Shown here piece after piece: positions 8,713-51,635 of a DNA stretch of 51,635 bases. Source of the DNA: a virus; the IMG/VR virus record IMGVR_UViG_3300033388_001284, positions 1-51,635 of that record; one strand, written 5' to 3'. Every line of letters begins with the position of its first letter. Positions within the stretch are counted from its first letter, which is position 1. A program made the position numbers and the translations under genes. The notes below the pieces were generated by a model, which saw only the letters and a list, made by a program, of their open reading frames with translations, was not told the DNA's origin and did no database searches.

Positions 8713-8716
8713 GTTA

Positions 8717-8766: not shown

Positions 8767-8776
8767 ACTTGATAGT

Positions 8777-12040: not shown

Positions 12041-12042
12041 TG
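12029..12042. repeat. AGGTGGATGTGATG coupling repeat, copy 1
   Basis: Ribosome site, stop and start in 14 bases; exact copy at 12506-12519. Encloses genes 12040-12264 and 12248-12517. Confidence 0.8.
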
Positions 12043-12517: not shown

Positions 12518-12684
12518 TGGAATACCAGAACAAAACACAATTGACACGTCTCAAGGAACAATTGTCACTTGTCTGTCAGGAATATATGAATAAACAAACA
12601 CACAGCATTAAAGATATCAAAGTTACTTTCACCACAGAGGGTATTGTAGGTGGAGTAGAAGTTAACATAAGGGAGCATAAGTAA
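12517..12684 (+). CDS. Small protein, unknown
   Basis: 55 aa, MEYQNKTQLTRLKEQLSLVC, then a beta hairpin (KVTFTTEGIVGGVEVNI) and REHK. AGGTGG is the ribosome site; its final AAG GGAG-like bases serve the next gene (TAATG overlap). Contains CAATTGTC at 12559. Confidence 0.6.
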   Translation: MEYQNKTQLTRLKEQLSLVCQEYMNKQTHSIKDIKVTFTTEGIVGGVEVNIREHK

Positions 12685-13210: not shown

Positions 13211-13472
13211 TAATGATTTAGCGGCAATGTTAGAAGAGAGACACCCAAGAGCTACAACTTTACAGATGAGTGGTTCCTTATCAGTTGATAGTAAAGATGA
13301 GAAAGTTACCAACACCTACTCACCGGAAGCACAGACAAGGGACGCATTGCTAATGCAACTAGGTTGTGAGATGAGTAAGTTATCAAATGACGATCTTTCA
13401 GTAGCAGTAGAACTTGTAGGAAAGCTTCCTGAACTTAAGAAGATAGGTAATATCTTATTAAGGATGCTTTAA
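13185..13472 (+). CDS. Small protein, unknown
   Basis: 95 aa, disordered N-terminus then helices (QTRDALLMQLGCEMSKLSND, VAVELVGKLPELKKIGNILL). Overlaps the upstream gene by 26 bases, with AAGGAGCAAG upstream of its ATG. Not recognised. Confidence 0.65.
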   Translation: MIVQPDQSDNDLAAMLEERHPRATTLQMSGSLSVDSKDEKVTNTYSPEAQTRDALLMQLGCEMSKLSNDDLSVAVELVGKLPELKKIGNILLRML

Positions 13473-13663
13473 TGGAGAGTATTTGCTGTCTTAATTGTGG
13501 GTACATGAGTAATCCCCGTAGAGGCAAGGTATGGTGCACTGAGGTACAGTTACTAAGACCATACGAACACAAATGTATCTTTTATAAAAATTATTTTGAG
13601 GTTCTTCTAGAACTGAGAAACAATAGACCAGATATCATCGTTGATGTGTCTGAACCAACTTAA
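13472..13663 (+). CDS. Small Cys-cluster protein, last gene of the early right arm
   Basis: 63 aa. MESICCLNCGYMSNPRRGKV then WCTEV and HKCIFY: C-C-xx-C...C...C, a likely zinc-binding fold. Start overlaps the upstream stop by one base. Unknown function. Confidence 0.6.
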   Translation: MESICCLNCGYMSNPRRGKVWCTEVQLLRPYEHKCIFYKNYFEVLLELRNNRPDIIVDVSEPT

Positions 13664-24000: not shown

Positions 24001-25233
24001 GATATAACAATTAGAGGGAACGCTCTAGTAGATATGACCTCTTGGGGTATTTTGGTCGGGGCTGCAAAGAGAATAACAGCGTATAACAATACAATTAGAG
24101 GAGCAGACACAGCACCCTTTGGTATTGCTTATAGACAAGGAACCTTACAAGGTGAAGTCGATAGGGCAACCGGTGTTGTTAGAGATAATATTATAAACAA
24201 CTGGACATCAGACAACTGGTTTCAAGGGAACTGTATTGTAGAGTACAGTTATAATATAGTAGGAAACGCTGAGTACCTTCAAGACCCAACTGATATTCTT
24301 GCTCCAGATCCAAGATTTGTTAATACCGCAGACATAGTAGGGCCAGATATGCTCCCGTTTACATCAGATGATGGTCTTCGTTTGTTGGAAGACTCACCAG
24401 CCATAGATAATGGCACTGATGGAGAAACAATAGGCGCATATCTATATGCCAGTACATTCACTGATTTAAAGGTGGATGAATTTGTATCAGTGAATGAGGA
24501 GGCAACACTCCAAAACTTGAAGCCTTTGGTGTCTACTGAAACTGTAACAGTCCAAGAGACCGCAGATTTACTTGTATCCAAGTGGTTAGTATCAAATGAA
24601 ACTGTAACAGTCCAAGAGACCGCAGATTTACTTGTAACTAAATGGCTGACAGTAACTGAAGAGACAGTAGTAATAGAAGTAGGTATCTTATCAGTTCCTG
24701 ACCTTATACTTCTAAGATCGCATGAGTATACGGGAGTATCTGATGAAGGCATAGTAAGCGCTATAAGAGGACTAAGTTCTGAGGAGCGAGTAAGACCGTA
24801 TGAGTACGGTAACCTTAGTTCTGAAGTAGTTGATCCTTTTAAAGACTACTTCGATAGAGGACAGTTTGATTATGGTGATGAACCGCCACAAGTCAGAGAT
24901 AAGGATATCGAGAATGCGAGAGCCGAAGCAGACTGCGTGTTTAACGAAGGAATATATCCAGATCAAGAATGTTCGGATAAAGCATACCTTTACCTAACAG
25001 CACACTTCCTACAGTCTGATATACAAGCCGGAGCGAGTTTTGGGCAGCCGGACTTTCTTCAGACAGCAAGAACCGCTGACGGGATTACAGAACACTTGTT
25101 CATCCCCGACTGGATGAAACAGAGTGATTTCGTTTTATATGTAACTACTTACTATGGTAAGAAGTTTTTAACAATATCAAAACCTTGGTTAGATGGTGCC
25201 GTATTTGTAGTAGCTGGAGGAACAACGTTCTAA
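21100..25233 (+). CDS. Giant beta-helix virion protein fused to a DUF4054 head-tail adaptor
   Basis: 1377 aa. Residues 1-350 and 352-700 are tandem copies of one beta-helix unit (both contain RYVDTGATGTGDGTSW, FTCYCRASTG, KGVNDGAP and RASQTFSF). Residues 719-1115 form a third, pectate-lyase/DUF1565-like parallel beta-helix (YYVDQAYPGASDSNDGSETN...NPW start, many NN turns). A linker has two exact ETVTVQETADLLV blocks. Residues about 1262-1377 (QECSDKAYLYLTAHFLQSDI, TYYGKKFLTISKP) match DUF4054, normally a free adaptor of about 120-150 aa in this slot. No internal ribosome site in frame was found, so the adaptor seems to carry a decoration or fibre of three helices out from the neck. Confidence 0.75.
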   Translation: MAEIIRYVDTGATGTGDGTSWTDAYTSMSAMEAAEQQDLVAGGNTFTCYCRASTGVADTTPVIFLGWTTGVANDIKIIGESTSKWDASKYRFVFPFSVTTGMSLEVPNLTFDSIHVEHTKSAASATYTYTIRVRNPGITIKNCILKGVNDGAPSQYLGWTGVHIQYSDGICLFYNNILYDFIVGGAAALKDRSSGVSTVYAYNNTLYNNDVSLQGDNGNMVVKNSIIAATGTTLVEGTISSASDYNSFDTAETTGGANDRASQTFSFTDVPTGDFTLLPIDTGALDVGVDLSADPGLSIVDDIIGTARPQGSGYDIGSIETIGSVTYVDLNSTETTTVIETADLTVQSAITDIVRYVDTGATGTGDGTSWVNAYTALATMESSEQQNLVSTNSRFTCYCRASTGLADTTPFVFLGWTTSVTNTISLIGEKTSSWNTDKYRLEIPYDVSTAISLEVPYLTWDAIHLQHTKSALSSTYVYTLRIRNPNIHVKNSIIKGVNDGAPAQYLGWSGVHIQIDSLSAQFSNNIIYGFDVDGAAALKDRSSIGATVYAYNNTIYGNDIALHCYDSTLVLKNTLVAGNNQTLEDSINPASDYNAFDSVETTGGANDRASQTFSFVDAPSGDFSLLLTDTGALDVGADLSADPGLNISNDIIGTSRPQGPGYDIGSIETPEDTGFVELQSTELAIIYEHADLTPGPYNVTATIPVLEPFPVSVLNPSQTYYVDQAYPGASDSNDGSETNPWLTIDHAADAVVGGGKIIVKAGFYDERVDSTVGGVDGNWKVFEAQGSVTCRGFVIRSASYVAVNGFIIIDQLDPIGTSYGSGVWVQGDYVYVLNNTISGFARSTGVTSSAYSVNLNVQVENNRIFDCTGGVWVDGSSWLVINNNISALRYIDGGDCDYFRYFGDDIIFRDNYMHDTLQSSVGPSHVDFFQTFWNNQESHRILIENNLGHGPYVNQAVLIEGQGDIVTDITIRGNALVDMTSWGILVGAAKRITAYNNTIRGADTAPFGIAYRQGTLQGEVDRATGVVRDNIINNWTSDNWFQGNCIVEYSYNIVGNAEYLQDPTDILAPDPRFVNTADIVGPDMLPFTSDDGLRLLEDSPAIDNGTDGETIGAYLYASTFTDLKVDEFVSVNEEATLQNLKPLVSTETVTVQETADLLVSKWLVSNETVTVQETADLLVTKWLTVTEETVVIEVGILSVPDLILLRSHEYTGVSDEGIVSAIRGLSSEERVRPYEYGNLSSEVVDPFKDYFDRGQFDYGDEPPQVRDKDIENARAEADCVFNEGIYPDQECSDKAYLYLTAHFLQSDIQAGASFGQPDFLQTARTADGITEHLFIPDWMKQSDFVLYVTTYYGKKFLTISKPWLDGAVFVVAGGTTF
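24537..24636. repeat. 40-bp direct repeat with 60-bp period in the linker
   Basis: The segment TGAAACTGTAACAGTCCAAG and the next 20 bases at 24537-24576 recur exactly at 24597-24636. In protein this gives two identical 13-residue blocks in the linker before DUF4054. Perfect identity suggests a young duplication. Confidence 0.85.
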
Positions 25234-39268: not shown

Positions 39269-40079
39269 ATATAACCATAGCAAATGATATTGGAGCAAAG
39301 AAGTCCAACACAATTGATGGGAAGAAAGACAATGCAAACTGGATAATAAAGCCTGGTACTTTAATAATTCTGGAGAAGTACTTGTAAGTATTCCCATTAA
39401 CTATATTATCAGAGCTGTCTTTAATTTTAATGATCTCTTTCTTATAATTAGAGATAGTTTTATTTATATTAGCAATTGACAACCTTAATTCGTCAATTCT
39501 CTTTTCGTTAGTCTTGGATGCCGTTCTGAAGGAACTACTCTCAAACATAGTATCAACAGTGTCCATTCTTTTATTTATAGATACCATTTCCTGAAGATAA
39601 GACTGTTTAGTCTCTTTTTGTAGCTGTATCAATTCTTCAATGTCAGACACTTCATTAAGGCTTAAAGTTGTACCTCCCCTTTGATCTATATTGGCATTGG
39701 ACAATGATTTATATTGTCCACCAACTGTTGATATTACAGAATAGAATACCAACAACAACCACACTACTAATATTGTAGACCCTTGAAATCTCTTAAGTAT
39801 TATTTGCCCAGTGTAACGTCTTCTTAGATCTTTATCCCTTTGTTTTCGTTTCTCTAAAACCATCTTGTTAGACTTAATATATAAGGCAATCGCCCCTTCA
39901 AATATAAGGTTTAGGAACAATACATAGATAACTGCTATTACTCCAGACCAGAACCAGTGAATATTATTATACATAAAGAAGTTAAAACTAAAGGCTATAC
40001 TGGCGACCATTGCCAGTGTGCCAATTACCAAGTATGCTATGTCTGTAACCATGCTTATTAACTGTTCTCTATCTTTCAT
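39252..40079 (-). CDS. DUF4407-like coiled-coil membrane protein
   Basis: 275 aa. Membrane helices near residues 10-35, 42-65 and 100-120 (VVWLLLVFYSVISTVGGQYK), then a periplasmic coiled coil (DIEELIQLQKETKQSYLQEM ... RIDELRLSIANINKTISNYK) and a C-terminal helix with FIIQFALSFFPSIVLDFFAP. The pattern fits DUF4407. It is the last gene of the leftward block and overlaps the lysis genes tail to tail by 17 bases. Possible roles: superinfection exclusion or control of lysis. Confidence 0.6.
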   Translation of the reverse strand: MKDREQLISMVTDIAYLVIGTLAMVASIAFSFNFFMYNNIHWFWSGVIAVIYVLFLNLIFEGAIALYIKSNKMVLEKRKQRDKDLRRRYTGQIILKRFQGSTILVVWLLLVFYSVISTVGGQYKSLSNANIDQRGGTTLSLNEVSDIEELIQLQKETKQSYLQEMVSINKRMDTVDTMFESSSFRTASKTNEKRIDELRLSIANINKTISNYKKEIIKIKDSSDNIVNGNTYKYFSRIIKVPGFIIQFALSFFPSIVLDFFAPISFAMVIFKRKK

Positions 40080-40261
40080 CTTTGGTCTCTCTTTCTACGT
40101 TCTGTATCAAACATCGCCATAGCTTCGCATACTATAAGGTAAGGACATCCACAAGTGCAGGTTCTATGCTGTAGGCAATCATGCTCTTCGATTGCCTGTA
40201 TTATATCTTCTTTTATTATATCTTTAGTTAATGTCAGCATTCTAGCTGCAGTTGCTTTCAT
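40076..40261 (-). CDS. Cys-cluster microprotein
   Basis: 61 aa: helix TKDIIKEDIIQAIEEHDC followed by LQHRTCTCGCPYLIVCEAMA. The order helix, C..., CxCxC, C resembles the other Cys-cluster microproteins of this genome. ATGA overlaps on both sides. Function unknown. Confidence 0.6.
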   Translation of the reverse strand: MKATAARMLTLTKDIIKEDIIQAIEEHDCLQHRTCTCGCPYLIVCEAMAMFDTERRKRDQR

Positions 40262-40866
40262 TTTTCACACCCAATTATCAAGTGGCTCATTGGTAATTGT
40301 TCAATCATACGTGTCACTACACCCCAGTCCTCTCTTAACTTATGTGACTTTCTTTGGTTATATATGGTCTTAAGCTGTAAATAGTTAGTTGATATACCCA
40401 TCCACAACTCAAATCCCATAGGCAAGTTTGATATAACACTCATGAATCGTTCATGTGTCTTATCTTCATTGTATAAGGCTATGAAACTATTTACCAGATT
40501 CATGATCCTTTGGTCAACATATCTGTTACAATTGGTAATGTCCAATTGTTGCTTTGTCAGTCTGTGCATTTTAGACTGACTTGACACAATATCAACCCAA
40601 CTATACCTCTGTAATTGGGGTGTTAAGTATTGTGGGTAACAGAAATCAAATTGTACTATGATACCTTTCAGGAAATTGTCGTGTCCTGATCCCGGCTTAC
40701 AGGATGATAACTTGCTGGCTCTGTCAAATTGTGCACTAAATGCTACTACATCAGTTGTATTACTCTCTGTCACGAACCTCTGGGGCCTCCCCACAAACAT
40801 TGGGTAACCTGCTCTGTATAGTGATCCTTCTAATCCAAACACTTCTATGTTAGTTATTTCTGTCAT
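40258..40866 (-). CDS. ThyX-like protein (distant), unknown function
   Basis: 202 aa. YLTPQLQRYSWVDIVSSQSK and MHRL in the middle, and a C-terminal STNYLQLKTIYNQRKSHKLR helix plus WGVVTRMIEQLP, recall the flavin-dependent thymidylate synthase fold (RHR...S..QRY and the 'L..f...R' helix), and similar proteins occur in many phages. The canonical RHRxxS motif is not exact here, so catalysis is doubtful. Follows the primase-polymerase block. Confidence 0.45.
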   Translation of the reverse strand: MTEITNIEVFGLEGSLYRAGYPMFVGRPQRFVTESNTTDVVAFSAQFDRASKLSSCKPGSGHDNFLKGIIVQFDFCYPQYLTPQLQRYSWVDIVSSQSKMHRLTKQQLDITNCNRYVDQRIMNLVNSFIALYNEDKTHERFMSVISNLPMGFELWMGISTNYLQLKTIYNQRKSHKLREDWGVVTRMIEQLPMSHLIIGCEK

Positions 40867-40868
40867 TT

Positions 40869-41141
40869 TTAATCCTTTTTTATATAATTCTTTTCCTCTG
40901 TTCTATTATCATTTTTGTATACGTTACCTATTATATCGTAGTCATACTCCCACATAAAATTCCGTGACAATAACTCCTTTATTGAGTACTCATATGACCT
41001 ATAGTTCATTTCTTTCGGTGGCCAATATTTAACATCATTTATTTTGCCATTGGAAGCTATATCAATCAAAAAATAATTGTGTCCATTTACAGTTTGATTT
41101 AGTTTTATCACGTCACCATCTTTTAGATCACTGTTATACAT
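40869..41141 (-). CDS. Small protein, unknown
   Basis: 90 aa. GDVIKLNQTVNGHNYFLIDI is beta-barrel-like; then WPPKEMNYRSYEYSIKELLS. AGGACGAAG precedes the ATG. The C-terminus is very charged (DNRTEEKNYIKKD). Not recognised. Confidence 0.65.
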   Translation of the reverse strand: MYNSDLKDGDVIKLNQTVNGHNYFLIDIASNGKINDVKYWPPKEMNYRSYEYSIKELLSRNFMWEYDYDIIGNVYKNDNRTEEKNYIKKD

Positions 41142-41319
41142 CTTCGTCCTCCGATAGTTGTTCTAAATTCTTGTTACGACCACCCGGTGGAGCTAAATAT
41201 CTTGAATAATGATGTATTGGGCATTGCTCACAATCTATCGTTGAACAGGGCACATCATCACATTTTTGGTCTTTATACTTATTGAATAGCTCCAATATTT
41301 CAGTAATTATATCCCTCAT
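41134..41319 (-). CDS. Cys-cluster microprotein (KYKDxxC type)
   Basis: 61 aa: ILELFNKYKDQKCDDVPCST, then IDCEQCPIHHY. Same order helix, KYKD, C...C...CxxC as 41316-41492 and 41884-42063, so these are paralogues. Ends in an acidic ELSEDEDV that encodes the next ribosome site (GAGGACGAAG). Confidence 0.6.
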   Translation of the reverse strand: MRDIITEILELFNKYKDQKCDDVPCSTIDCEQCPIHHYSRYLAPPGGRNKNLEQLSEDEDV

Positions 41320-41492
41320 TTCTTTCTCCCAACTACATTTTCTATGGCGATTACTTCGTTACTAGTCCCTTCGATGTTAGAGTATGCTACTAGAGGGCAA
41401 ACACTACAATTTAGCCCATAGCAGGTAACATCAGAACATCTCTTGTCTTTATATCTGTTGTGTAACTTCTTTAGTTCCTTAAACATGTTCAT
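41316..41492 (-). CDS. Cys-cluster microprotein (KYKDxxC type)
   Basis: 58 aa: MFKELKKLHNRYKDKRCSDV, then TCYGLNCSVCPLVAYS. Start overlaps the VRR-NUC stop (ATGA) and its stop overlaps the next start. Four Cys could hold one zinc. Paralogue of the next gene. Confidence 0.6.
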   Translation of the reverse strand: MNMFKELKKLHNRYKDKRCSDVTCYGLNCSVCPLVAYSNIEGTSNEVIAIENVVGRKK

Positions 41493-41902
41493 TTCTTCTT
41501 TTCTCCAAATAAAATATTTAATAATCCCTTATCTTTTAAAGAAGGGCCATACCATAATGACCTCTTCTCTATATCATCCATCTCTTTATAGAACTCGTCA
41601 AATAAGAAGTATTGATTGTCATACCACCCTAGACAAAAAGTTCTTTTGTTTGTTCTGTGATGCTTTCTTAACCATGGCAATTGGCCCTTCCTGTAGTCGA
41701 AGCGGTACACCTCGTCCCTTGCTATCCACTTTATAACCTTCAGTTCTATCCACCCTGTTATAGCAGGATCAAAGTAATATACATCCGGTACGCCAATTGA
41801 CGATCCACCGGTCTCAATACTACAAAATGTCCCTTGATGTATGTCAGAGATCCCCTTTAGTACTCTGTACATCATAGTTTCTGTCATTCTTTCTTTAAAC
41901 AT
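41489..41902 (-). CDS. VRR-NUC / PD-(D/E)XK endonuclease
   Basis: 137 aa from ATG 41902 (GAGGAGAGGACA upstream; an upstream frame to 41950 has no ribosome site). CSIETGGSSIGVPDVYYFDP, then WIELKVIKW (GxPD and ExK) and a C-terminal LGWYDNQYFLFDE. Size and motifs fit stand-alone VRR-NUC or Holliday-junction-resolvase-like nucleases. Lies in the replication block, so branch or primer removal is likely. Confidence 0.75.
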   Translation of the reverse strand: MFKERMTETMMYRVLKGISDIHQGTFCSIETGGSSIGVPDVYYFDPAITGWIELKVIKWIARDEVYRFDYRKGQLPWLRKHHRTNKRTFCLGWYDNQYFLFDEFYKEMDDIEKRSLWYGPSLKDKGLLNILFGEKKK

Positions 41903-42063
41903 TGTCCTCTCCTCTGGGTTCTTATAAAACACATTATGCACTCGGAGCATAACAACTCATTTATCCTCATACACTCTAGGTCTACACAGCGTATATCTTT
42001 GTATTTTTCTATTAGTTCTATCAAAACCTTGTTATCTTCATAAAGCTCTTCTATACCTATCAT
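41884..42063 (-). CDS. Cys-cluster microprotein (KYKDxxC type)
   Basis: 59 aa: LIELIEKYKDIRCVDLECMR, then LLCSECIMC. GGAGGAG precedes ATG 42063 and lies in the 23-bp repeat that also ends the polymerase gene. Overlaps the nuclease start by 19 bases. Unknown role. Confidence 0.6.
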   Translation of the reverse strand: MIGIEELYEDNKVLIELIEKYKDIRCVDLECMRINELLCSECIMCFIRTQRRGQCLKKE

Positions 42064-42065
42064 CT

Positions 42066-42088
42066 TAAAAACTCCTCCGCTCTAGTTT
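42066..42088. repeat. 23-bp direct repeat, copy 1 (ribosome site)
   Basis: Exact copy of 42293-42315, the last codons (TRAEEFL) of the polymerase gene. Here it is non-coding and supplies GGAGGAG for gene 41884-42063. The two copies flank gene 42099-42290. Confidence 0.9.
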
Positions 42089-42098
42089 TCGTTATTCT

Positions 42099-42290
42099 TT
42101 AAGCAAGACTTTCCTCTATATCACTAGCAAAACATCTTATCTCTTCAATCTTACCATTTCTGTCTTTATACTCAACATCAAATACGTTACATTCTTTCTC
42201 TCGACATAACCTCATAATCACCCCATGCACTTTGTGCATTTTAATAAATACTTTGTTGTCTATATCATACTCAAACTCTACTTCTCTCAT
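42099..42290 (-). CDS. Small protein between polymerase and microprotein genes, insertion candidate
   Basis: 63 aa: REVEFEYDIDNKVFIKMHKV, HGVIMRLCREKECNVFDVEY, a small beta protein that resembles phage 'gp' beta-barrels of unknown role. ATGA overlap with the polymerase stop. Flanked on both sides by the same 23-bp sequence, so it looks inserted between the polymerase and its old neighbour. Confidence 0.65.
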   Translation of the reverse strand: MREVEFEYDIDNKVFIKMHKVHGVIMRLCREKECNVFDVEYKDRNGKIEEIRCFASDIEESLA

Positions 42291-44086
42291 CCTAAAAACT
42301 CCTCCGCTCTAGTTTCTGAAACATCCCCCCAATTGTCGCCGACTTCTATATCAGCTCTAATTGGCACTCGTAACTTGACGCATGATTCCATGCAATGTGC
42401 CAGCTCTTTAGTTGCCTCCTTACCTTCTTTTGTTTGTGGTATTGATACATCTAACTCATCGTGAACTGTTAAATGTGGTTTAAGCACATTAAACACTCCA
42501 GCCTTATATGCATCAAGCATTCCTTTCTTCATAACATCAGCAGCAGTGCCTTGTATCAACTTGTTAAGCATCTTATAGTAACCACCGTTATTTCTTATCC
42601 AGTCGTCAACTCTTCCACGTCTTCCTAATAGTGTTACTATATAACCACGTTGCCGGGCATCGTCACCTACAACGTTCATTGTGTGACGTACATAAGGCAT
42701 TTCACTGTGGTACAGATTAACTATTTCCATTCCATGTTCTAGGTCCCAACCATTACTTTCAGCACATTTCTTGGCTCCCATTCCGTACATAGACCCAAAG
42801 TTAACTGCTTTAGCATATTTACGTTCTAGTCCAGTCCACTGCATAACTGTCTTATGGTAGTCAGTCGTTGGATCAGTACAATAGGCATGTCGCAATTGAT
42901 CAGCCCTGTCCCCTTGCGCATAATGGGCTAGTATCCGATACTCAATCTGTGAGTAATCAAGCTTACCCCACAGATGCCCTTCTTCAGGTATATAAGCTGC
43001 TCTACATTCCTTACCAAATCTATCTGCTTTAGAGGGCTGATTCTGCAGGTTGGGATTTGTACCAGAAAATCTTCCAGTTATTGTACCCTTACCATCTTTC
43101 TTTAATGGATGAAACATGCCATGTATTCTTCCATCTATACAAGTGTCAGGATCAAGTAGTATATTCTCAAATACAGAACTAACTACTCTCTTCATCCGCT
43201 TGACTTCTAATATCTCTTTAGCTATTGGGTGAGCTGTTCTCTCAAGAACAACATTGCTTATTGATGGATTCTTTTTATCCGTTGTAGGATAAGGTAATCC
43301 TAAAGAATCAAATATTACCGCCATCTGTTTAGATGAGTTATAATTGAATTCTCCGTATTCGTCAAATAACTTTACTTCCTTTTTACGAATTTCTTTATTG
43401 AACAACGATCTATTATCGGCCACTACATCTTGGTTAACCCTAACACCTTGTTTTCTCATCTGTAACAATAAAGGAGTTAAAGCGATTTCCATATGATAAA
43501 CTTCAAGTAGATTTTGTTCCTTCATACATGCCCATTGTTTCCTGAATATCTCAATAGGTAGTACTGTATCCTCAAGAGCGTATTCTCTAACCATCTCTAA
43601 AGGCATCTTAGATAAATGCTTTCTTGCATCACCTTTCCAACCTTTAGACTCAGCGTACTCAGTTATTCTGGACTTCTTCTTACCTTTATTCAGGTACTTA
43701 AGTGCTAAGTTGTCAAGGGAATAAGATCTTGAATACTCATCTAACAAAGACTCTGCATACTGGACATCGTGCAATTCACCATTGACATTTATCCCGTAAC
43801 CATTCTGGAGCCAGTCGATATCGTAGAGTAGGTTAGCTCCCAATTTCTTATTGTTACCTGCCAATTGTTCTTTAAGGTAGGCAATGTTCTTCTGTTTCCG
43901 TACAGGGTTTGTCTCTTCATGACCTATGTCGTAATATTCTGAGAAACCATCTGTAGTTGTTATTGCGCAACCCAAGATATGTCCGTCTTTTCTGTAGACA
44001 CCGGGCCCTTTGTCAAGTAACAATGGGTCATATGTCTCTATGTCCAGTGATATTACTGGTTGGTTTTTAAGATCTGGATATTTCAT
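42287..44086 (-). CDS. Family A DNA polymerase with 3'-5' exonuclease
   Basis: 599 aa. Exonuclease: VISLDIETYD (residues 10-19), LGANLLYDIDWLQ, YALEDTVLPIEI. Polymerase: motif A GKLDYSQIEYRILAHYAQGD (near 380), motif B RKYAKAVNFGSMYGMG (near 425), motif C LTVHDELDVSI (near 563). No 5'-3' nuclease domain, as in T7-like polymerases. The replicative enzyme of the phage; may ride on the clamp-like protein at 7048-8067. Confidence 0.95.
   Translation of the reverse strand: MKYPDLKNQPVISLDIETYDPLLLDKGPGVYRKDGHILGCAITTTDGFSEYYDIGHEETNPVRKQKNIAYLKEQLAGNNKKLGANLLYDIDWLQNGYGINVNGELHDVQYAESLLDEYSRSYSLDNLALKYLNKGKKKSRITEYAESKGWKGDARKHLSKMPLEMVREYALEDTVLPIEIFRKQWACMKEQNLLEVYHMEIALTPLLLQMRKQGVRVNQDVVADNRSLFNKEIRKKEVKLFDEYGEFNYNSSKQMAVIFDSLGLPYPTTDKKNPSISNVVLERTAHPIAKEILEVKRMKRVVSSVFENILLDPDTCIDGRIHGMFHPLKKDGKGTITGRFSGTNPNLQNQPSKADRFGKECRAAYIPEEGHLWGKLDYSQIEYRILAHYAQGDRADQLRHAYCTDPTTDYHKTVMQWTGLERKYAKAVNFGSMYGMGAKKCAESNGWDLEHGMEIVNLYHSEMPYVRHTMNVVGDDARQRGYIVTLLGRRGRVDDWIRNNGGYYKMLNKLIQGTAADVMKKGMLDAYKAGVFNVLKPHLTVHDELDVSIPQTKEGKEATKELAHCMESCVKLRVPIRADIEVGDNWGDVSETRAEEFLG
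42293..42315. repeat. 23-bp direct repeat, copy 2 (end of polymerase)
   Basis: Coding copy: last codons of the polymerase, including GGAGGAG that serves the overlapping next start. See 42066-42088. Confidence 0.9.
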
Positions 44087-44316
44087 TGGAACACTTCACT
44101 TATGAAGACAAAGGCCATGAAAAGCATCGGTGCTCCTAACAACATTGTGTAAGACATTATCAATGTAACCCTCAGCGTTAAACTTTTAATCTTATATATC
44201 AAACAAATCGGAATAAACATTGTAAGTAGAACTGCTGCCACTGCAAAAGATAATTGTATTATACCTAAAAAGTATACCGTTATTAGTTCTTTTATATACA
44301 TAATTATTTCTGTCAT
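44083..44316 (-). CDS. Small membrane protein
   Basis: 77 aa from ATG 44316 (AGGTGAG three bases upstream). Two helices (FLGIIQLSFAVAAVLLTMFI and MSYTMLLGAPMLFMAFVFI). Lies between helicase and polymerase. Possibly anchors replication to the membrane, by position only. Confidence 0.6.
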   Translation of the reverse strand: MTEIIMYIKELITVYFLGIIQLSFAVAAVLLTMFIPICLIYKIKSLTLRVTLIMSYTMLLGAPMLFMAFVFISEVFQ

Positions 44317-44320
44317 ATAC

Positions 44321-45706
44321 TCACCTATATATCTTATATTCATATTTTGTATCACTATGTACTAAGTACAAGTTTTTCTTTGCTCTGGTAACACCCACGT
44401 AGAACACCCGGTGTTCACTGTCTGGGTTCTTGTTTAAGTTTTCGTGTACCTGTTTTGTTATATTAAGAAGTAGTACAACATTATCTGCTTCCGAGCCCTT
44501 GGTAGCATGTATTGTATTAACCTCTATGGTATAATCGTTAAGTACTCTACCTTTAGTAACAAAGTTTCTTATATGTGTTTTCTTAGCTGCTTCCCACTTA
44601 AACGACATCCACCAAGGTTGCTTGAAACTGAAGTGCTCCTCAAGAACTCTCCTCAACTTTAGATCGTCTTTATCACTGACTATTAAAGTCTTCTGTGCTT
44701 GCTCGTATAATTGAACCATATTCAGGTCTTCTTGTGTTATAGACGGGGAACCTTTATACCTATAAGGATATCCACCGTCCTCAAGCATCTCTTTAACACC
44801 GTTAAGGAACGTGTTATTCCTAGATAGAAACATCCAACTCTCACAATTGTCAAGTGGCAATCCTTTAAGGTTATTCATTGTGTAAACAGCACCATCTTTA
44901 CCGGTTGACTCATAATGTTTCTCTACTCTTTTAGATATCAATTTTGTGATGTTCTTTGACAAGTTAAGAACCGCTCTTGGAAGCCTATAACTCTGTCTAA
45001 GGATCTCTATATCACCATCCAATTCTAAGAAGTAGTTTACATCGGCACCTGACCATTGGTAAATGGCTTGGTCATCATCCCCGGCGACATATATTGTATC
45101 AACATGTTTAAAGGCAGCCCATATCATTCTCCACTGTAACGAAGATAGATCCTGTGCCTCATCGACAATTGCCACCTTGACAGGTACCGCTTCACCATTG
45201 TCAATGAACTGTTCTATTAGATCAGTATAGTCTCTTAATTTCATGTGGTCTTTAAATCGTTTGTAGTTGTGCTTAACAAAGTTATATTTGCTTATATCAA
45301 CGCTGTCTAGATGTGTTCTGGTTGCCGATGGGTTGTTCCTGTGTAGGTCTTGTAGGAACAGATATTTATCATCGTTATGTTTAAGATCTTCTGTGTAGTA
45401 ACCGGTGAAATACATCCCTAGTTTCTTAGAAAACTCTCTATAATGAGATTTCTGTACCATCTCATTCTGTTTGGCTCCCAAAGAGAAGAAAGCCAAACTG
45501 TGTAACGTTCTAAAGTATGGGTAGTCCTTATCGCTACCACCAAACTTCTCTTTGGCTCTCTTCTTCCCCTGATTAACGCCTTCCCTAGTGTAACTAACAA
45601 AGGCTATTTCTTCCTTCTTATATGTTTTTAAAAGCTCCTCCAGTATACTGAGGAGCTTGGTTGTTTTCCCAGTGCCTGGGGGCCCAAAAATTAGGTTAGT
45701 CTGCAT
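44321..45706 (-). CDS. UvrD/PcrA-like SF1 helicase
   Basis: 461 aa from ATG 45706 (GGGAG 7 bases before). Motif I FGPPGTGKTTK, Ia FVSYTREGV, II VDEAQDLS, III AGDDDQAIYQWSGAD, IV LRQSYRLP, V IHATKGSEAD, VI FYVGVTRAKKNLYLV. A compact 3'-5' DNA helicase for replication restart or recombination. Overlaps 45696-45902. Confidence 0.9.
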   Translation of the reverse strand: MQTNLIFGPPGTGKTTKLLSILEELLKTYKKEEIAFVSYTREGVNQGKKRAKEKFGGSDKDYPYFRTLHSLAFFSLGAKQNEMVQKSHYREFSKKLGMYFTGYYTEDLKHNDDKYLFLQDLHRNNPSATRTHLDSVDISKYNFVKHNYKRFKDHMKLRDYTDLIEQFIDNGEAVPVKVAIVDEAQDLSSLQWRMIWAAFKHVDTIYVAGDDDQAIYQWSGADVNYFLELDGDIEILRQSYRLPRAVLNLSKNITKLISKRVEKHYESTGKDGAVYTMNNLKGLPLDNCESWMFLSRNNTFLNGVKEMLEDGGYPYRYKGSPSITQEDLNMVQLYEQAQKTLIVSDKDDLKLRRVLEEHFSFKQPWWMSFKWEAAKKTHIRNFVTKGRVLNDYTIEVNTIHATKGSEADNVVLLLNITKQVHENLNKNPDSEHRVFYVGVTRAKKNLYLVHSDTKYEYKIYR

Positions 45707-45902
45707 ACCTGAACTCCCATTTAGCCTTAGCAATACACTCACTATACAGCGCACATGGTGGTACATAAGGGTTGCTTTCTACTCTATCATGCAAACAATT
45801 ATCACAACACTTTAATTTCTCTATGAAGTCTAAGACCGCCTTATCTTTATCTGAATCGTTAAATAGTACTACTTTATCACCTATCAAAATACCTTGCTTC
45901 AT
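45696..45902 (-). CDS. Cys-cluster microprotein
   Basis: 68 aa: VLFNDSDKDKAVLDFIEKLK, then CCDNCLHDRVES and CALYSEC. Helix, CxxC, Cx5C order like the other members. Between primase and helicase. GAGAGGATT precedes the ATG. Confidence 0.6.
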   Translation of the reverse strand: MKQGILIGDKVVLFNDSDKDKAVLDFIEKLKCCDNCLHDRVESNPYVPPCALYSECIAKAKWEFRYAD

Positions 45903-45911
45903 AATCCTCTC

Positions 45912-47468
45912 CTAATATGGTTTCTCATCATAATCTTTACTAAAATCTACGTCAAACTCATCAATTTTAGTCTCATCTATAAACTTACTTAGTGCCTCAA
46001 CAGGTAACTGCCAAGCTCTTAATTGTCTATTCTTCTTATTTATATAGTAACACTTTGACTTGCCACCTAGATCTAAGATCCTCATTCTTACTTCAGCATC
46101 TGAGTAAGCTCTAAATTGTTTGACCTGACGTAGAAAGGCATATAGGTTCTTAGCTTTAAATATGTAGGCACCTAAGTCTTTGTCATGGTACACCTTGTCA
46201 AGCAACAAGTCTTCTTTGGCGATTGCCATTGACTTACCTGTCATAAATTCTGTTAAGTGCTCCATGAAGATAGCTCCTGTGGACATATCCTCCTCAATGG
46301 CTATTGTTATTACTTTTATGTTAAGTAATGCACTGTTAACAATCTTACACCAATTGTTCTCTTTCAGTCTACCGGGTAATTTATGTAGAGTACGGAAACA
46401 AAGTTCTCTGAACTTTGCTTGGTTTATTATGTCTGATTCTTTCTCAAATCTTAAAGGCTTACCGTCTACTACCCACTCGTATGTTGGTGGATCTGTCATA
46501 TGTTGATAGAAATCTTCATAGGTCAGTTCACTTACTTCATCACCCCCTATGCCATACTGTCTATTCTTACATGTTATCTTATTACAGTAACCCACAATAG
46601 GATCTTGTGAACATCTGTATGTATAATCTTTCTTTTCGTGTGATTTTATAACTGAGTTATAAACCTCGCTACTTGGTAACTGCTTATCTCCAAGTTGTCT
46701 GTTTGCTTCGTCAATGTGCGTTTCGTATTGGTCACCATACTTTGCTTTAAAGTATACTGCTAGAGAGAACAAGTAATTATTTCTACTTGTAGTATCACCT
46801 TTTAAGTATATATGTTGTAGACAAGGTGGTGCATCGTGTAATTCTACTGTCTCTAATGTCCCTTTGGCAGTTGTCATGGTGGCCATTCTGCTTTTTATTA
46901 TCTGTAAAGCCTCTTCCAGTGTTGCCGGAGTACGATCTGCTTTTACTAACACAGCTTTAGCTTTATCTTTGTTGTAGTAAGGAAGGTTTATCCAATTACC
47001 AATACCACCTGATTTCAAGTTGTTCTGTTTAGGAAATACTTCAGTTGTCAGAGACAGTCCAAGTAACACACAATATTCTCTAAGTACTTCAATAAGTGTT
47101 TTAGCCTTTACTGGTTCTTCTAGGAACATGTACAAGTGCCAACCACCGCTCTTTGACCTAAAAGGGAACAGCGGCAGGTTGTGCTGATAGATGAGGTCTA
47201 ATAGATAGTCAAAAGAACTATTATACACATCAACATCTATTACTCCGAACTTACAAGTTGAGTTAGGTGTTATTGGTGATATACCTAAACCTCTCTTACC
47301 ATTTAAGTGATCCTCGTATAAGTGGTCTAGTACCATCTCATTTTTAGTGTACGTTTTACCGTTTAGTTCCTTCTTACCATCTACCACTTCTCCATATTCA
47401 TGTACTCCGTACCCAGTGGTATTACCTGAGAAAAGTTCTATAAAAGTTTGTGATGTTAGTACATTCAT
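45912..47468 (-). CDS. Archaeo-eukaryotic-type primase (AEP)
   Basis: 518 aa. N-terminal catalytic domain: GVIDVDVY (metal-binding Asp pair, near residue 73) and SKSGGWHLYMFLEEPV (sGxH, near 105), then a third acid nearby. Zinc-like part DPIVGYCNKITCKNRQYG near residue 290. C-terminal region with DLGGKSKCYYINKKN. These are hallmarks of phage AEP primases. No DnaB-like helicase partner is seen; UvrD and SNF2 helicases flank it. Confidence 0.75.
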   Translation of the reverse strand: MNVLTSQTFIELFSGNTTGYGVHEYGEVVDGKKELNGKTYTKNEMVLDHLYEDHLNGKRGLGISPITPNSTCKFGVIDVDVYNSSFDYLLDLIYQHNLPLFPFRSKSGGWHLYMFLEEPVKAKTLIEVLREYCVLLGLSLTTEVFPKQNNLKSGGIGNWINLPYYNKDKAKAVLVKADRTPATLEEALQIIKSRMATMTTAKGTLETVELHDAPPCLQHIYLKGDTTSRNNYLFSLAVYFKAKYGDQYETHIDEANRQLGDKQLPSSEVYNSVIKSHEKKDYTYRCSQDPIVGYCNKITCKNRQYGIGGDEVSELTYEDFYQHMTDPPTYEWVVDGKPLRFEKESDIINQAKFRELCFRTLHKLPGRLKENNWCKIVNSALLNIKVITIAIEEDMSTGAIFMEHLTEFMTGKSMAIAKEDLLLDKVYHDKDLGAYIFKAKNLYAFLRQVKQFRAYSDAEVRMRILDLGGKSKCYYINKKNRQLRAWQLPVEALSKFIDETKIDEFDVDFSKDYDEKPY

Positions 47469-47491
47469 TTGTGTAGCCTTTAGTTAAGATA

Positions 47492-47511
47492 GGCCCTGAA
47501 TTAACAGGGCC
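47492..47511 (-). other. GC-rich hairpin upstream of the primase gene
   Basis: GGCCCTG and CAGGGCC (47492-47498, 47505-47511) with a 6-base AT loop. On the transcribed (leftward) strand no T-run follows, so it is not a classic terminator; it may pause polymerase, be an RNase site, or insulate the primase ribosome site. Confidence 0.65.
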
Positions 47512-47520
47512 CTTGTTTAT

Positions 47521-48267
47521 TTAATATGGTAAATCGTTGTCGTTTGATACTGGAGTTGATGCAGGTGGTAACTGTTTGGTGTTACTTACCTCTGGCTCAG
47601 GTAATGCCTTTTGTGCTAATGCTTCTACGTTAGCTACAGCATCTTTGATATATTTAACGTACTCATCTTCAGTTATAAGACGAACTCTCTCAACATTTGC
47701 CGCAGAGGATGATCCGATATTATGCCACATGTTACCATCTTTATTATTTAAAACTGATCCTAGTTTCCAGACAGTGGCAAAGAAAGGTGCTTTGTTACCA
47801 TTATCTAATCTTGTACATGCTATCAAAGTGTTCCAAGATTTAGCATATTTAATGGAAGCGCTCTTTAAAGATAGTATTTTAATACCTGAGTCCATATCAT
47901 CCGCTACATATACATAATACTCGATTATCTCTGACAACTCATTGCCATTAGGTAATACCCATTTAGCATATACATCTTTATTAACCCCTGCTGGTTCAGT
48001 GTCATGTACTGTTACAAAGCCTGCTCTATTAGGTTTCCACTCTATGAACTTTCTTTTGAAGTATACTGGTATGATATTAACTTCCTTGCCATATACTTTG
48101 TTAGTTATGGAGTCCATAAACATACCTTGTTTAGCACCCTTTACATAACCCTTGTCATCCTCATTACACTGTGGTGAAAGTTTCTGTAATATTTTTAGGT
48201 AAGGAATGTTTATATCCCCCATGCCCATGTTTACTTTGTCATCTGCTCCGTTTAAAAAATCACTCAT
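47521..48267 (-). CDS. Probable single-stranded DNA-binding protein
   Basis: 248 aa. INIPYLKILQKLSPQCNEDD, GKEVNIIPVYFKRKFIEWKP and a beta-rich core with many basic and aromatic residues. The C-terminus ends VSNDNDLPY, close to the acidic DDIPF-type tip by which SSB proteins hold partners. Between primase and a helicase-side gene. I recall similar proteins in phage replication blocks. No clear OB-fold motif; assigned by tail and context. Confidence 0.55.
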   Translation of the reverse strand: MSDFLNGADDKVNMGMGDINIPYLKILQKLSPQCNEDDKGYVKGAKQGMFMDSITNKVYGKEVNIIPVYFKRKFIEWKPNRAGFVTVHDTEPAGVNKDVYAKWVLPNGNELSEIIEYYVYVADDMDSGIKILSLKSASIKYAKSWNTLIACTRLDNGNKAPFFATVWKLGSVLNNKDGNMWHNIGSSSAANVERVRLITEDEYVKYIKDAVANVEALAQKALPEPEVSNTKQLPPASTPVSNDNDLPY

Positions 48268-48290
48268 TTTACTGCTCCTGTTTTGTTTTG

Positions 48291-48842
48291 TTATTTTATT
48301 TTAGTTTTCTTATATATAAAAAGACCACACTCTTTAGGCACGTCTTCTATATTAACTCTTTGTATAGTATTTTTCTTAAGACCTAACAGGTCAGTGTAAT
48401 ATGCTTTCAATGTTTGTGGGTGGACTGTCTCCTCTTCTTTGAAGGGAACCGACTCATCTATAAGATAGTTTTTTATTGTATCCTCTGGACAATTTATTGT
48501 CAAGGTATCTTTAATAATATCTGCCCCATTATTATTTCTTAAGAAGTCTAAAGCTATCTTTCTCTTAGCCGGATCGGTCTTTGGTAAGGACACTTTTACA
48601 TCTTCTGTTATCTCAATCTTTGCACCAGTTCCAAGTGTAACTCCGCTCAGCCCCTTTAGTTGTAGGAACTCAGGTATCATTTCACCGGACAGTTTGAGCT
48701 CTTGCATCTTAAGTTTTTTTAAGTGCTCCTCACTCTCTTTTATATGTACTCTTAGCCCTTCCAAATCTTGACACATGATTGACAAATGTGAAAGGTCACT
48801 TGCTACTGGCTCATTGTCCAGTTGTTCTAAGAAATTACTCAT
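48291..48842 (-). CDS. Replication-block protein, unknown
   Basis: 183 aa from ATG 48842 (GGAGGAGACAGCCG upstream). Coiled-coil N-terminus (CQDLEGLRVHIKESEEHLKK), then TLGTGAKIEITEDVKVSLPK and KRKIALDFLRNNNGADIIKD. The latter resembles the C-terminal half of phage 'siphovirus Gp157-like' replication accessory proteins, but this is not firm. Confidence 0.6.
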   Translation of the reverse strand: MSNFLEQLDNEPVASDLSHLSIMCQDLEGLRVHIKESEEHLKKLKMQELKLSGEMIPEFLQLKGLSGVTLGTGAKIEITEDVKVSLPKTDPAKRKIALDFLRNNNGADIIKDTLTINCPEDTIKNYLIDESVPFKEEETVHPQTLKAYYTDLLGLKKNTIQRVNIEDVPKECGLFIYKKTKIK

Positions 48843-49008
48843 CGGCTGTCTCCTCCAATAAAAATTCCAGTGATTCACATATATCGTCCCACTTGCACTC
48901 GTTACAGGGTGTCTTATCCTTGTAGCACAAAGAGGACTTAGCTTTATGCTCTGCTATTAACTTCTCGTCTAACTTCATTGTAACCACGTCTCTTAGTCTA
49001 AGCTTCAT
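48835..49008 (-). CDS. Cys-cluster microprotein (C-x6-C-xx-C-x5-C)
   Basis: 57 aa: MKLRLRDVVTMKLDEKLIAE, then CYKDKTPCNECKWDDIC and LEFLLEETADE. Same Cys spacing as 49138-49311. Last codons GAG GAG ACA GCC GAT are the next ribosome site and start. Starts inside the end of its upstream neighbour. Confidence 0.6.
   Translation of the reverse strand: MKLRLRDVVTMKLDEKLIAEHKAKSSLCYKDKTPCNECKWDDICESLEFLLEETADE
48839..48855. repeat. 17-bp coupling repeat, copy 1
   Basis: Ribosome site GAGGAGACAGCC plus start (minus strand), identical to 49005-49021. The copies bound the microprotein gene 48835-49008. Confidence 0.85.
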
Positions 49009-49138
49009 CGGCTGTCTCCTCTACAGAATCATCTCTGCGTGCTTGTTCATCACACGTTATTCGGAACTTACAATCACTACAATCTATACCCCAACAATCA
49101 AAATCCTGCCACCGTTCGAAATCTGTCTTTTCTTCCAT
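48998..49138 (-). CDS. Cys-cluster microprotein (C-x4-C-xx-C-x5-C)
   Basis: 46 aa: EEKTDFERWQDFDCWGIDCS then DCKFRITC and VEETADEA. Same Cys motif and same VEETADE end as its downstream neighbour. ATG shares its A with the TGA of the gene before. Confidence 0.6.
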   Translation of the reverse strand: MEEKTDFERWQDFDCWGIDCSDCKFRITCDEQARRDDSVEETADEA

Positions 49139-49311
49139 CACACTTCCTCCGCTAAATATTCCTCTAGGTATTCACAACTAACTAGCCACCTACACTCCAC
49201 ACAAAAAGGATCACCAACTGAACACTTTATACGATCGTCTTTAAACTGTTTTAATAACTCAGTATTCTTAACCTTTAGCTCAAGTATAGTAGCTAACTTT
49301 ATATGTTCCAT
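49138..49311 (-). CDS. Cys-cluster microprotein (C-x6-C-xx-C-x5-C)
   Basis: 57 aa: helix ILELKVKNTELLKQFKDDRI, then KCSVGDPFCVECRWLVSC, and YLAEEV. Its last codons equal those of the SNF2 helicase (AEEV, 22-bp repeat at 49133-49154 and 49306-49327), because both serve as ribosome site for the following start. Confidence 0.6.
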   Translation of the reverse strand: MEHIKLATILELKVKNTELLKQFKDDRIKCSVGDPFCVECRWLVSCEYLEEYLAEEV

Positions 49312-49327
49312 CACACTTCCTCCGCTA
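49306..49327. repeat. 22-bp coupling repeat (second copy at 49133-49154)
   Basis: Exact repeat of the end of the helicase gene at the end of the microprotein gene. Distance between copies 173 bases, exactly enclosing one microprotein gene. Confidence 0.9.
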
Positions 49328-50969
49328 TGTTTTTAATATCTGTGTTTCTAAAGTAATCAAGTAAACTCTTGTGAGATGACAATGCTGTATGAACCTTCTC
49401 GTCAACCGTTCCTTTGATCATAATATCTTTATAAACACATGTTTTTGTTTGACCACCTCTGTGTGTCCTGTCCTCACTTTGTAACCTGGTCTCTAATGAA
49501 TAGCTATTTGACAAGTAATAAGTGATACTTGCCATTTGTAGGTTTAACCCTATTCCCATACTGGAATTACCTACTAGAATGTCTACCTCACCACGCTTAA
49601 AAGCAGCTATTATATGTCGTCTTGCATCCTTATCTATCTCTCCGAAGTAGCCTTCAATTCTCTTGGTAGGAAATTCCTTACGGAGTGATTCTATAGTCTG
49701 CTTAATCTCAGCAGTAAACCGGCTCCAGATAATTATCTGTTCGTCACTTGTCTCATGTATATCAGCAATAACAGCGTTAACCTTTGGGTTACTCTTTCCA
49801 ATTGGCACTGGGTCACGATCCACTTTATACATGTCGTCCAGATCTTCAGTATAAGGAAAGAAGTTACTTGTTACTTGCTGTAACCTTGTTAATAAGGTCA
49901 TCTTGTTTGCAACTGTCAATTCTTTCTTGTCATATATAGTAACCAGCTCGTCTTTAAGCTCTTTATATATACGTTCCTGTTCCTTCGACATGTTAACAAA
50001 AAGTTTTTGGTATACTTTAGGAGGTAAGTCCAGGCATTCGTCTTTCCTGACTGTTATACTATCCTCTGCAACCTTACTTTTAAGTTCATCAAGGTACTTA
50101 TAAGGCTTACGCTCCCCCGGATGCTCAATAATATACTTAATATCATCCTGTGGTAGTTTCATCTTTGTTGCTATCTCGAAGATACTTTTACCTTGCTTGG
50201 AATATGCTCTAATATACTGCATTTCGACCTCTGTCACTTGCCTTGTATATTGTTGCATGTAACCACCGTTGCCTCTCCTTTGTTCCTGTACCTCAATTCC
50301 GTACCTTTGTTTGAATCCGTAAAAGTTCATCTCAAAATAATTAAACCTCAAGAACTCATGTATTGCCCAAATGTCATAAACACTGTTTGTTACTGCTGTA
50401 CCTGTAAGAGCTAACCGGTACTTAGAAGTATAATCAACTCCGGTTATTGCTCTGCCACGTCTCTTAAAGTTGTTTAAACCATAGACAATGTTGAAGAATC
50501 TCTTTGACTTAGGATTCTTAATACGTGTCACCTCGTCAATTATCACCATTGTATTATGTTTCTCACAAAAATCTTTAAATACCAAATAACTAGTGCCACT
50601 TGAAAATGTCTCAACGTTGACTGCAAACCACTTTAAGGAGTCAGTTTTCATGTTGACAAATGTCTCTAACTCACTGTTATACCTCTTTGTTTTCTTCGTA
50701 CTCCACAATAAGGAAGTAGTAGGTACTGGTGAATGTATATCCAATTGTTCTTGGATCCACTGCTCTGCTACACCATTCGGTGCAATAACCAACACAGCGT
50801 TTATTTTACCCTCCACGAATAGGTTTGATGCAATATCAATTGAAGTTTTTGTTTTCCCAGTTCCCATTTCCATATATAGAGCGTATCCCTCCTTACCATA
50901 AGCAGACATAAATGCCTCTGCCTGCTTTTCGTAAGGTTCTGTCTTATACAGATAATGATATTTACTCAT
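49311..50969 (-). CDS. SNF2-type (SF2) DNA helicase / translocase
   Basis: 552 aa. Motif I MEMGTGKTK (near residue 36), II VIIDEVTRIKNP (DEVT where DEAH is usual), III LALTGTAVTNS, IV-VI QIIIWSRFTAEI, GNSSMGIGLNLQMA and SEDRTHRGGQ. An inserted helical stretch near residues 240-300 includes SKQGKSIFEIATKMKLPQDD, which looks like a helix-turn-helix. Ends LLDYFRNTDIKNIAEEV. Likely remodels DNA during replication or recombination. Confidence 0.85.
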   Translation of the reverse strand: MSKYHYLYKTEPYEKQAEAFMSAYGKEGYALYMEMGTGKTKTSIDIASNLFVEGKINAVLVIAPNGVAEQWIQEQLDIHSPVPTTSLLWSTKKTKRYNSELETFVNMKTDSLKWFAVNVETFSSGTSYLVFKDFCEKHNTMVIIDEVTRIKNPKSKRFFNIVYGLNNFKRRGRAITGVDYTSKYRLALTGTAVTNSVYDIWAIHEFLRFNYFEMNFYGFKQRYGIEVQEQRRGNGGYMQQYTRQVTEVEMQYIRAYSKQGKSIFEIATKMKLPQDDIKYIIEHPGERKPYKYLDELKSKVAEDSITVRKDECLDLPPKVYQKLFVNMSKEQERIYKELKDELVTIYDKKELTVANKMTLLTRLQQVTSNFFPYTEDLDDMYKVDRDPVPIGKSNPKVNAVIADIHETSDEQIIIWSRFTAEIKQTIESLRKEFPTKRIEGYFGEIDKDARRHIIAAFKRGEVDILVGNSSMGIGLNLQMASITYYLSNSYSLETRLQSEDRTHRGGQTKTCVYKDIMIKGTVDEKVHTALSSHKSLLDYFRNTDIKNIAEEV

Positions 50970-51231
50970 TACTTATCTCCAGTGTTATAATCTCGTCAGG
51001 AGGCAGTAACTCTACCAACATTGTATTATAACTAAGATCTCCAGTCCAACAATCATTATCAGTTTTTGGAGGTAGTAACATACCCTCGAATTCAGCAGAA
51101 CTAGCTGTTCTCATTACTAGCTCTCCTACTCTAGAGCTATTTGTAGCAATTCTTGCCACTTGTAAAGGCCGCATATCTCTTATACTAATCAGTCTTCTCT
51201 CATGTTCTTTTGCGTTTATTATTTTAATCAT
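50962..51231 (-). CDS. Small protein, paralogue of 51233-51505
   Basis: 89 aa from ATG 51231, chosen by comparison with its paralogue (ATG 51240 is in frame). MRPLQVARIATNSSRVGELV, MRTASSAEFEGML and LLPPDEIITLEISNE. The two share about 40% of residues: (M)xPLQV.RI...SS.VG..V.RTAS...FE and LL.PDEAITLE.SN. Unknown function. The end encodes CTGGAGATAAGTA, the ribosome site of the helicase. Confidence 0.65.
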   Translation of the reverse strand: MIKIINAKEHERRLISIRDMRPLQVARIATNSSRVGELVMRTASSAEFEGMLLPPKTDNDCWTGDLSYNTMLVELLPPDEIITLEISNE

Positions 51232-51232
51232 T

Positions 51233-51505
51233 TTATCCATTACTTAGCTCCAAGGTTATCGCCTCGTCTGGTGAGAGTAGTTCCACCTCTAATCCTTGGT
51301 TTTTCATGGACAACTCCCAGCAAGCATCTACTGTACCATCAGTTATATCCATTACCTCAAACTTGCTTGTGGAGGCGGTACGAAGCACTATATGTCCTAC
51401 ACTGGAGGAACTTTGAGAAACTATTCTACCCACTTGTAGTGGTTCCATAGCCCCCATCAGTATTACAATTTTAATATCTGTTTTTCTCTCTACAATCTTT
51501 ATCAT
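51233..51505 (-). CDS. Small protein, paralogue of 50962-51231
   Basis: 90 aa from ATG 51505, just after the stop of the permuted amidase gene. MEPLQVGRIVSQSSSSVGHI, VLRTASTSKFEVM and LLSPDEAITLELSNG. A tandem duplicate of the next gene; the shared C-terminal TLE(L/I)SN reflects a shared ribosome site. Unknown function. Confidence 0.65.
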   Translation of the reverse strand: MIKIVERKTDIKIVILMGAMEPLQVGRIVSQSSSSVGHIVLRTASTSKFEVMDITDGTVDACWELSMKNQGLEVELLSPDEAITLELSNG

Positions 51506-51506: not shown

Positions 51507-51635
51507 TTATCCAATCCTTTTAATATAAAAATACTCCGGCAATGAGCCAGGGTCAAGTAACGAGTTAGGCATGTCAGTTAACCACCATTCATCTCGCTTT
51601 AGTCCTGCAGTTGTCAAGAAGTCAGCAACAAACTC
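51507..51635 (-). CDS. 3' end of the permuted NlpC/P60-like amidase gene
   Basis: Continuation of the gene at 1-498; within the window only the end is present (…LPEYFYIKRIG, stop 51507-51509). Bases 51522-51635 repeat 1-114. Confidence 0.9.
   Translation of the reverse strand, partial: EFVADFLTTAGLKRDEWWLTDMPNSLLDPGSLPEYFYIKRIG
51522..51635. repeat. Right copy of 114-bp terminal direct repeat
   Basis: Identical to 1-114. See the left copy. Confidence 0.97.

Follow-up and report, generated by a model that had tools for sequence, protein, structure and literature searches.

Short repeats at the gene junctions of a contractile-tailed phage genome as probable scars of tiny-gene gain

Among Cluster O mycobacteriophages, gene 14 of Corndog (also gene 60 of YungJamal) was described in 2015 as a 126-bp gene flanked by a 17-bp direct repeat at a gene-gene junction, and the other four close relatives have a single copy of the repeat and no gene (PMC4351075). 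The authors proposed a deletion between the repeats, or an acquisition via homology resembling the repeat (PMC4351075). In T4-type phages, according to the account of Arbiol 2010 and Comeau 2014 given in PMC4503421, regulatory repeats called PeSL cassettes lie between small genes and mediate their shuffling. Repeats called SAS and ESAS occur at the ribosome sites of small non-structural genes in Cluster K mycobacteriophages (PMC3203893). The conserved boundary sequences model holds that the recombination behind phage mosaicism is targeted to short intergenic sequences (PMC3233612).

The DNA analysed here, called the window, is IMG/VR virus record IMGVR_UViG_3300033388_001284 at its full length of 51,635 nt. 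Judged by a 114-bp terminal direct repeat (1-114 = 51522-51635), the record is probably a complete genome. It belongs to a contractile-tailed phage because terminase, portal and tail sheath genes are present. A replication module on the minus strand encodes a helicase, Pam3 gp33-like and gp34-like proteins, a primase, a UvrD-type helicase, a family A polymerase and a VRR-Nuc-type gene; the primase gene (45912-47468) has an AEP-TOTE (PF22548) domain match. The right arm of the window had no DNA-level match among phage records by megablast, and no close relative of the phage was found by megablast against phages, single-protein scans or a contig search. The best tblastn match reached only ~37%.

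The window is like Corndog gene 14 in having small genes between short direct repeats on gene-gene junctions. The Corndog cluster provides one or two cases, whereas the window holds about eight junction repeats in one genome. The present analysis also goes beyond Corndog with fossils of upstream C-termini, a statistic that controls for SD and a polarised gain in another lineage. PeSLs, which combine a promoter and a terminator stem-loop in one genome-wide motif, differ from the window in that each of its pairs has a sequence of its own. PeSL-type cassettes were rejected because the junctions at 42 and 49 kb have no promoter or terminator stem-loop; the window pair nearest to a PeSL is 8354/8717, which has a small stem-loop. 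SAS has a single 13-bp consensus, dispersed over the genome in 11-19 copies, whereas the window repeats are local pairs of differing sequence, and almost no runs are shared at long range within the window. The boundary-sequence model covers exchange between phages, whereas in the window the boundary sequence itself is duplicated.

An earlier note on this DNA had listed six repeat pairs flanking tiny genes, and all were confirmed in the sequence at the coordinates and lengths claimed: 42066/42293 (23 bp), 48839/49005 (17 bp), 49133/49306 (22 bp), 12029/12506 (14 bp), 8354/8717 (50 bp) and 6486/7025 (26 bp). The length of the 14-bp pair alone gives no significance. A repeat search also returned two junction repeats that the note had missed, 3434/3819 (18 bp) and 8065/8710 (19 bp). 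An additional pair, 10889/11209 (15 bp), is less sure as its start ATG is uncertain.

How unusual are these repeats? Exact repeats of at least 17 bp numbered 10 at distances below 600 bp, 4 at 600-1200 bp and 0 at 1.2-25 kb, and the single one beyond 25 kb is the 114-bp terminal repeat. An order-4 Markov null gave 0 repeats of at least 17 bp at distances below 600 bp in 60 simulations. About half of the near repeats of this length are found within long genes, at 18.4 kb and 21-24.6 kb, and the remainder all lie on start-codon junctions, except for an AT-rich simple repeat at 6529/6536. Of 14 repeat copies, 13 touch a start codon, where circular shifts give an expectation of 1.1. As to the long genes themselves, the 1377-aa gene at 21100-25233 has internal direct repeats of ~260 nt (77%) at a spacing of 1044 nt and a 60-nt tandem repeat, and the head maturation protease-like gene at 17556-18686 has near-exact internal repeats of 44-61 nt in a highly charged region.

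Junctions were also compared by gene lag. Genes were called by a simple script that reproduced the expected map, and windows from -30 to +9 anchored on start codons were searched for shared runs of at least 12 bp. Such runs were found in 7/102 comparisons at lag 1, 0/440 at lags 4-8 and 2/2126 at lags of 9 or more (lag 1 versus lag 4 or more, 7/102 versus 2/2566, Fisher p=3.3e-9). In related contigs, the same test gave 10/820 at lag 1 versus 14/7610 at lag 4 or more (p=4e-5); in other words, the lag-1 rate in relatives is 1.2%, about one-fifth of the 6.9% in the window. Nine control stretches from phages with similar helicases, partly non-independent of each other, contained one junction repeat of at least 15 bp, at gene 52 of Acinetobacter phage Barton. 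The earlier note had set against its own reading the chance that ribosome-site bias alone yields as many repeats; the Markov null and the lag test did not produce them, and SD bias as their source is ruled out by the distance and lag tests. One mobile motif shared by all repeats was also ruled out, as the sequence differs from pair to pair.

The first junction described here is at the end of the polymerase gene, with the following features.

42287-44086, minus strand: family A DNA polymerase, 599 aa (phrog_17, E=1e-115)
42293-42315, minus strand: junction repeat copy 1 (AAACTAGAGCGGAGGAGTTTTTA), coding in the polymerase and SD for 42099-42290
42099-42290, minus strand: tiny gene, 63 aa, between both copies (codon log-odds +0.38 in frame)
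42066-42088, minus strand: junction repeat copy 2, a non-coding fossil of the polymerase tail (TRAEEFL) and SD for 41884-42063
41884-42063, minus strand: tiny Cys-rich gene, 59 aa, a weak paralogue of 41134-41319 (E=0.019); its frame score is near zero (0.01)
41489-41902, minus strand: small conserved VRR-Nuc-type gene, the end of the slot (phrog_2165, E=3.5e-15)

The last codons of the polymerase (ETRAEEFLG*), within 42293-42315, double as a ribosome site for the gene that follows. The end reads ACT AGA GCG GAG GAG TTT TTA GGA TGA, in which GGAGG is that ribosome site. Beyond the 63-aa gene, the same bases recur in a non-coding gap and still give GGAGG to 41884-42063. The earlier note had placed this copy at a gene end; it lies instead in the non-coding gap as a copy of the polymerase tail. 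In relatives, polymerases have unrelated tails after a conserved NWG motif, and some of these tails also encode a ribosome site (terminal KEV is AAGGAGGT in L004 and L005). The 63-aa gene has no detectable relative among phages or in the relatives' contigs, and 41316-41492 has no homologue among phages. The label of phrog_2165 in its library is 'DNA helicase', and the gene after the polymerase of MW202510 is annotated vrR-nuC.

Between the helicase and the gp33-like gene, three Cys-rich tiny genes follow one another.

50962-51505, minus strand: tandem paralogue pair, 92 and 90 aa, with ends TLEISNE and TLELSNG (46% identity, E=7e-18)
49311-50969, minus strand: DNA helicase, 552 aa, whose end ..IAEEV* is coded by the junction (phrog_62, E=4e-95)
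49306-49327, minus strand: junction repeat copy 1 (TAGCGGAGGAAGTGTGATGGAA), exact
49138-49311, minus strand: tiny Cys-rich gene g1, 57 aa, end ..LAEEV*
49133-49154, minus strand: junction repeat copy 2 of the TAGCGGAGGAAGTGTGATGGAA pair, exact
48998-49138, minus strand: tiny Cys-rich gene g2, 46 aa, end EETADEA*
49005-49021, minus strand: junction repeat copy (GAGGAGACAGCCGATGA), exact
48835-49008, minus strand: tiny Cys-rich gene g3, 57 aa, end EETADE*
48839-48855, minus strand: junction repeat, exact partner of 49005-49021
48291-48842, minus strand: Pam3 gp33-like protein, the end of the slot (PF23984, E=8e-14)

The earlier note had explained the shared ends of neighbouring proteins by the ribosome sites that they encode. 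This holds for AEEV, EETADE, RWM and AEEFL, and fails for TLE(L/I)SN, whose bearers are true paralogues. The two members of this pair (50962/51233) have 73% DNA identity over 56 nt with similar ends and junctions, and tandem duplication has certainly acted here. It may also account for the Cys-rich genes at 48835-49314.

Tiny Cys-rich genes occur in the window at 40076-42063, 45696-45902, 48835-49311, 1965-2141, 5971-6087 and 13472-13663. At least four cysteines are found in 13/38 genes of up to 70 aa in the window versus 35/247 in relatives (p=0.004). The tiny Cys-rich genes have a common core C-x(n)-C-x2-C, and the family has weak PHROG matches alone (phrog_14146 and phrog_16571).

Repeats at four other loci flank the following genes.

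3440-3823, minus strand: 127-aa gene between the 18-bp repeats 3434-3451 and 3819-3836, missed by the earlier note
6554-6988, minus strand: 144-aa gene between a broken (7025-7050) and an intact (6486-6511) copy of a gene start, an exact repeat
8407-8712, minus strand: 101-aa gene between the exact 50-bp repeats 8354-8403 and 8717-8766
12040-12517, plus strand: two small genes, 74 and 89 aa, between the 14-bp repeats 12029-12042 and 12506-12519 (end RWM)

The description of the pairs as coupling junctions needs correction for two of those named in the earlier note. At 7025-7050, the first codons of gene 6268-6507 (MGLNEVE) are followed by unrelated sequence, and the intact start is at 6507; thus the pair is a gene start copied as a broken fragment. 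The 50-bp pair is a repeated upstream region with a small stem-loop, SD and start, and may be a regulatory cassette; at 8346-8405 and 8709-8768, a CGGTAT-CAT-ATACCG stem-loop precedes the ribosome site.

The same slots were followed in distant relatives. Searching with an alignment of two polymerases turned up 19 loci, with polymerase identities of 38-47% in the near group, and the core gene order is conserved. The slot between the polymerase and the VRR-Nuc-type gene is empty in L003 (genes coupled), L011 (overlapping) and L016 (adjacent), and holds one to three unrelated small genes in L004, L005, L006 and L010. Likewise, the slot between the helicase and the gp33-like gene is empty in L006 and L007 and filled by various small genes in L003, L010, L013, L014 and L016. 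Relatives that always carried the same genes between unrelated flanks would have spoken against the earlier note; the slots proved to be empty or variably filled. The window's flanked small genes have no relative in the related contigs. L006 and L007/L008 (93%) differ after the VRR-Nuc-type gene in a way that does not bear on the window's slots. Junction repeats were present elsewhere too: in L014, a 16-bp repeat flanks a 60-aa Cys-rich gene that occupies the same helicase-gp33 slot as in the window, and others were found in L029 (26 bp), L036, L027 and at Barton gene 52 (15 bp). Two slot genes belong to the Csx16 family (PF09652, Cas_VVA1548), namely L006:12129-12446 in the polymerase slot and L013:3528-3824 in the helicase slot; a similar Csx16-like sequence at ~639-977 of L010 was recognised by eye only. 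It is possible that the Csx16-family slot genes are ring nucleases against type III CRISPR.

A polarised case comes from another lineage. In L053 (G013), a 117-aa gene is bordered on each side by a 17-23 bp junction sequence (AATAAACGTAAGGGAGA), whereas its sister L052 (87% identical) and the outgroup L051 (~68-70%) have that junction once and lack the gene. BLAST aligns L052 in pieces whose 23-bp overlap is the L053 repeat. Because both sister and outgroup are empty, the history is simplest if L053 gained the gene. The gained gene is a moron membrane protein (phrog_1486). The second copy is non-coding, a fossil of the tail of the upstream gene, whose stop has decayed from TAA to CAA. This is the anatomy of the window's polymerase junction, and the window's own loci would, by analogy, have arisen as in L053. 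Thus the prediction of the earlier note that one gene and one repeat copy are together present or absent among relatives is borne out by L053 against L052 and L051, while the window's own loci lack a close relative. Its suggestion that tiny genes are gained or lost via junctions found support for gain, the polarised case including no loss.

Gain does not always take this form. In the Acinetobacter phages L057, L059 and L061, and in L062/L063, gene-sized indels between close relatives often have an ATG exactly at their start or end. Across pairs of Acinetobacter and of Klebsiella/Salmonella phages, the sequence shared at such ATG-bounded indels is often only 3-15 bp long; therefore gain needs no long junction duplication, and junction duplication is one route of gene gain among several.

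The reading that we favour, at a probability of about 0.62, is that the repeats are scars of tiny-gene gain with junction duplication. A tiny gene would insert at the border of two translationally coupled, closely packed genes, and a stretch of ~15-25 bp (the upstream gene's last codons, SD and start) would end up on both sides of the newcomer. The first copy would now start the newcomer; the second would keep the ribosome site of the old downstream gene and could be a non-coding fossil of the upstream C-terminus. The copying would probably proceed by short-homology annealing or template switching in phage replication, and selection would retain only those products that leave the downstream gene with a ribosome site. 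Clean excision of the gene could follow later, if the two copies recombined. The earlier note had proposed that recombination between junctions keeps both neighbours translated. When one repeat unit is deleted in silico, both neighbours stay intact at 7/7 loci (one loses its last residue), with a stop-start spacing of -8 to +1 at 6/7 loci and of 111 at 8354/8717; copying of the junction during insertion fits this result as well. No recombinase or homing endonuclease match was found on the scanned inserted units (166-539 bp, 1-2 small ORFs). A recombinase search firmly identified none, giving a weak hint of a RecE-like exonuclease in a homologue (E=0.0036).

The main rival is a tandem duplication of a small gene with its terminal junction, after which the coding parts diverged while the junction was conserved as a ribosome site. 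The 50962/51233 pair fits this, the Cys-rich trio of the helicase-gp33 slot may fit it, and so does L027, which has a tandem paralogue and an 82-aa gene extra to L050 (~83-90% in flanks): genes 8401-8562 and 8559-8738 of L027 are tandem paralogues that have KRRVKK ends in common, the 22-bp junction repeat being this common end, and 8401-8562 is absent from L050. However, the genes beside repeats 42066, 3434, 8354, 6486 and 12029 have no detectable homology to their neighbours, and the gene gained by L053 is unlike its own neighbours. As an account of the repeats in general, tandem duplication is thus unlikely, and some neighbouring Cys-rich genes may have arisen by duplication of gene and junction together.

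It is very improbable that neighbouring junctions became alike without duplication, by selection for good ribosome sites or a common regulatory motif. Every copy does have SD and a start, and one 50-bp copy has a small stem-loop, but sharing drops sharply with gene distance (from lag 1 to lags of 4 or more), the repeats vary by locus, and identity reaches past SD into unrelated codons and non-coding fossils. Since the polymerase tail has a fossil at 42066 and a gene start lies broken at 7025, the likeness comes from copying and not from convergence. Gene conversion or slipped copying that homogenised neighbouring junctions once the genes were in place would also be expected to give locally identical junctions; it leaves that fossil and that broken start unexplained, and between L052 and L053 the gene and second copy appear together, so we consider it improbable. 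An artefact of assembly deserves a thought because the IMG/VR record is probably metagenome-assembled. It is hardly credible, since the k-mers and reads commonly used in assembly are much longer than these repeats, and other contigs as well as the cultured phage Barton have structures of this kind.

Junction-duplicating gene gain, as favoured here, is a dense example of an event published before for Corndog gene 14, and the interest lies in the density of the window's repeats, in its fossils and in the polarised L053 example. Given this precedent and a sample of modest size, the claim stays small. More tentatively, junction duplication could be a general phage route for bringing tiny genes into packed operons with the neighbours unbroken, in which the C-terminal tails of core proteins serve as landing sites and some lineages, such as that of the window, use it at an unusually high rate with readable fossils. 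The finding bears on how phages insert small accessory genes, for example for counter-defence, harmlessly between essential overlapping genes. A junction copied with the gene is a simple answer and leaves a searchable signature, near-identical start junctions around one small gene. As the slots of related phages hold Csx16-family genes, searching for this signature could help to reveal counter-defence genes that were gained recently.
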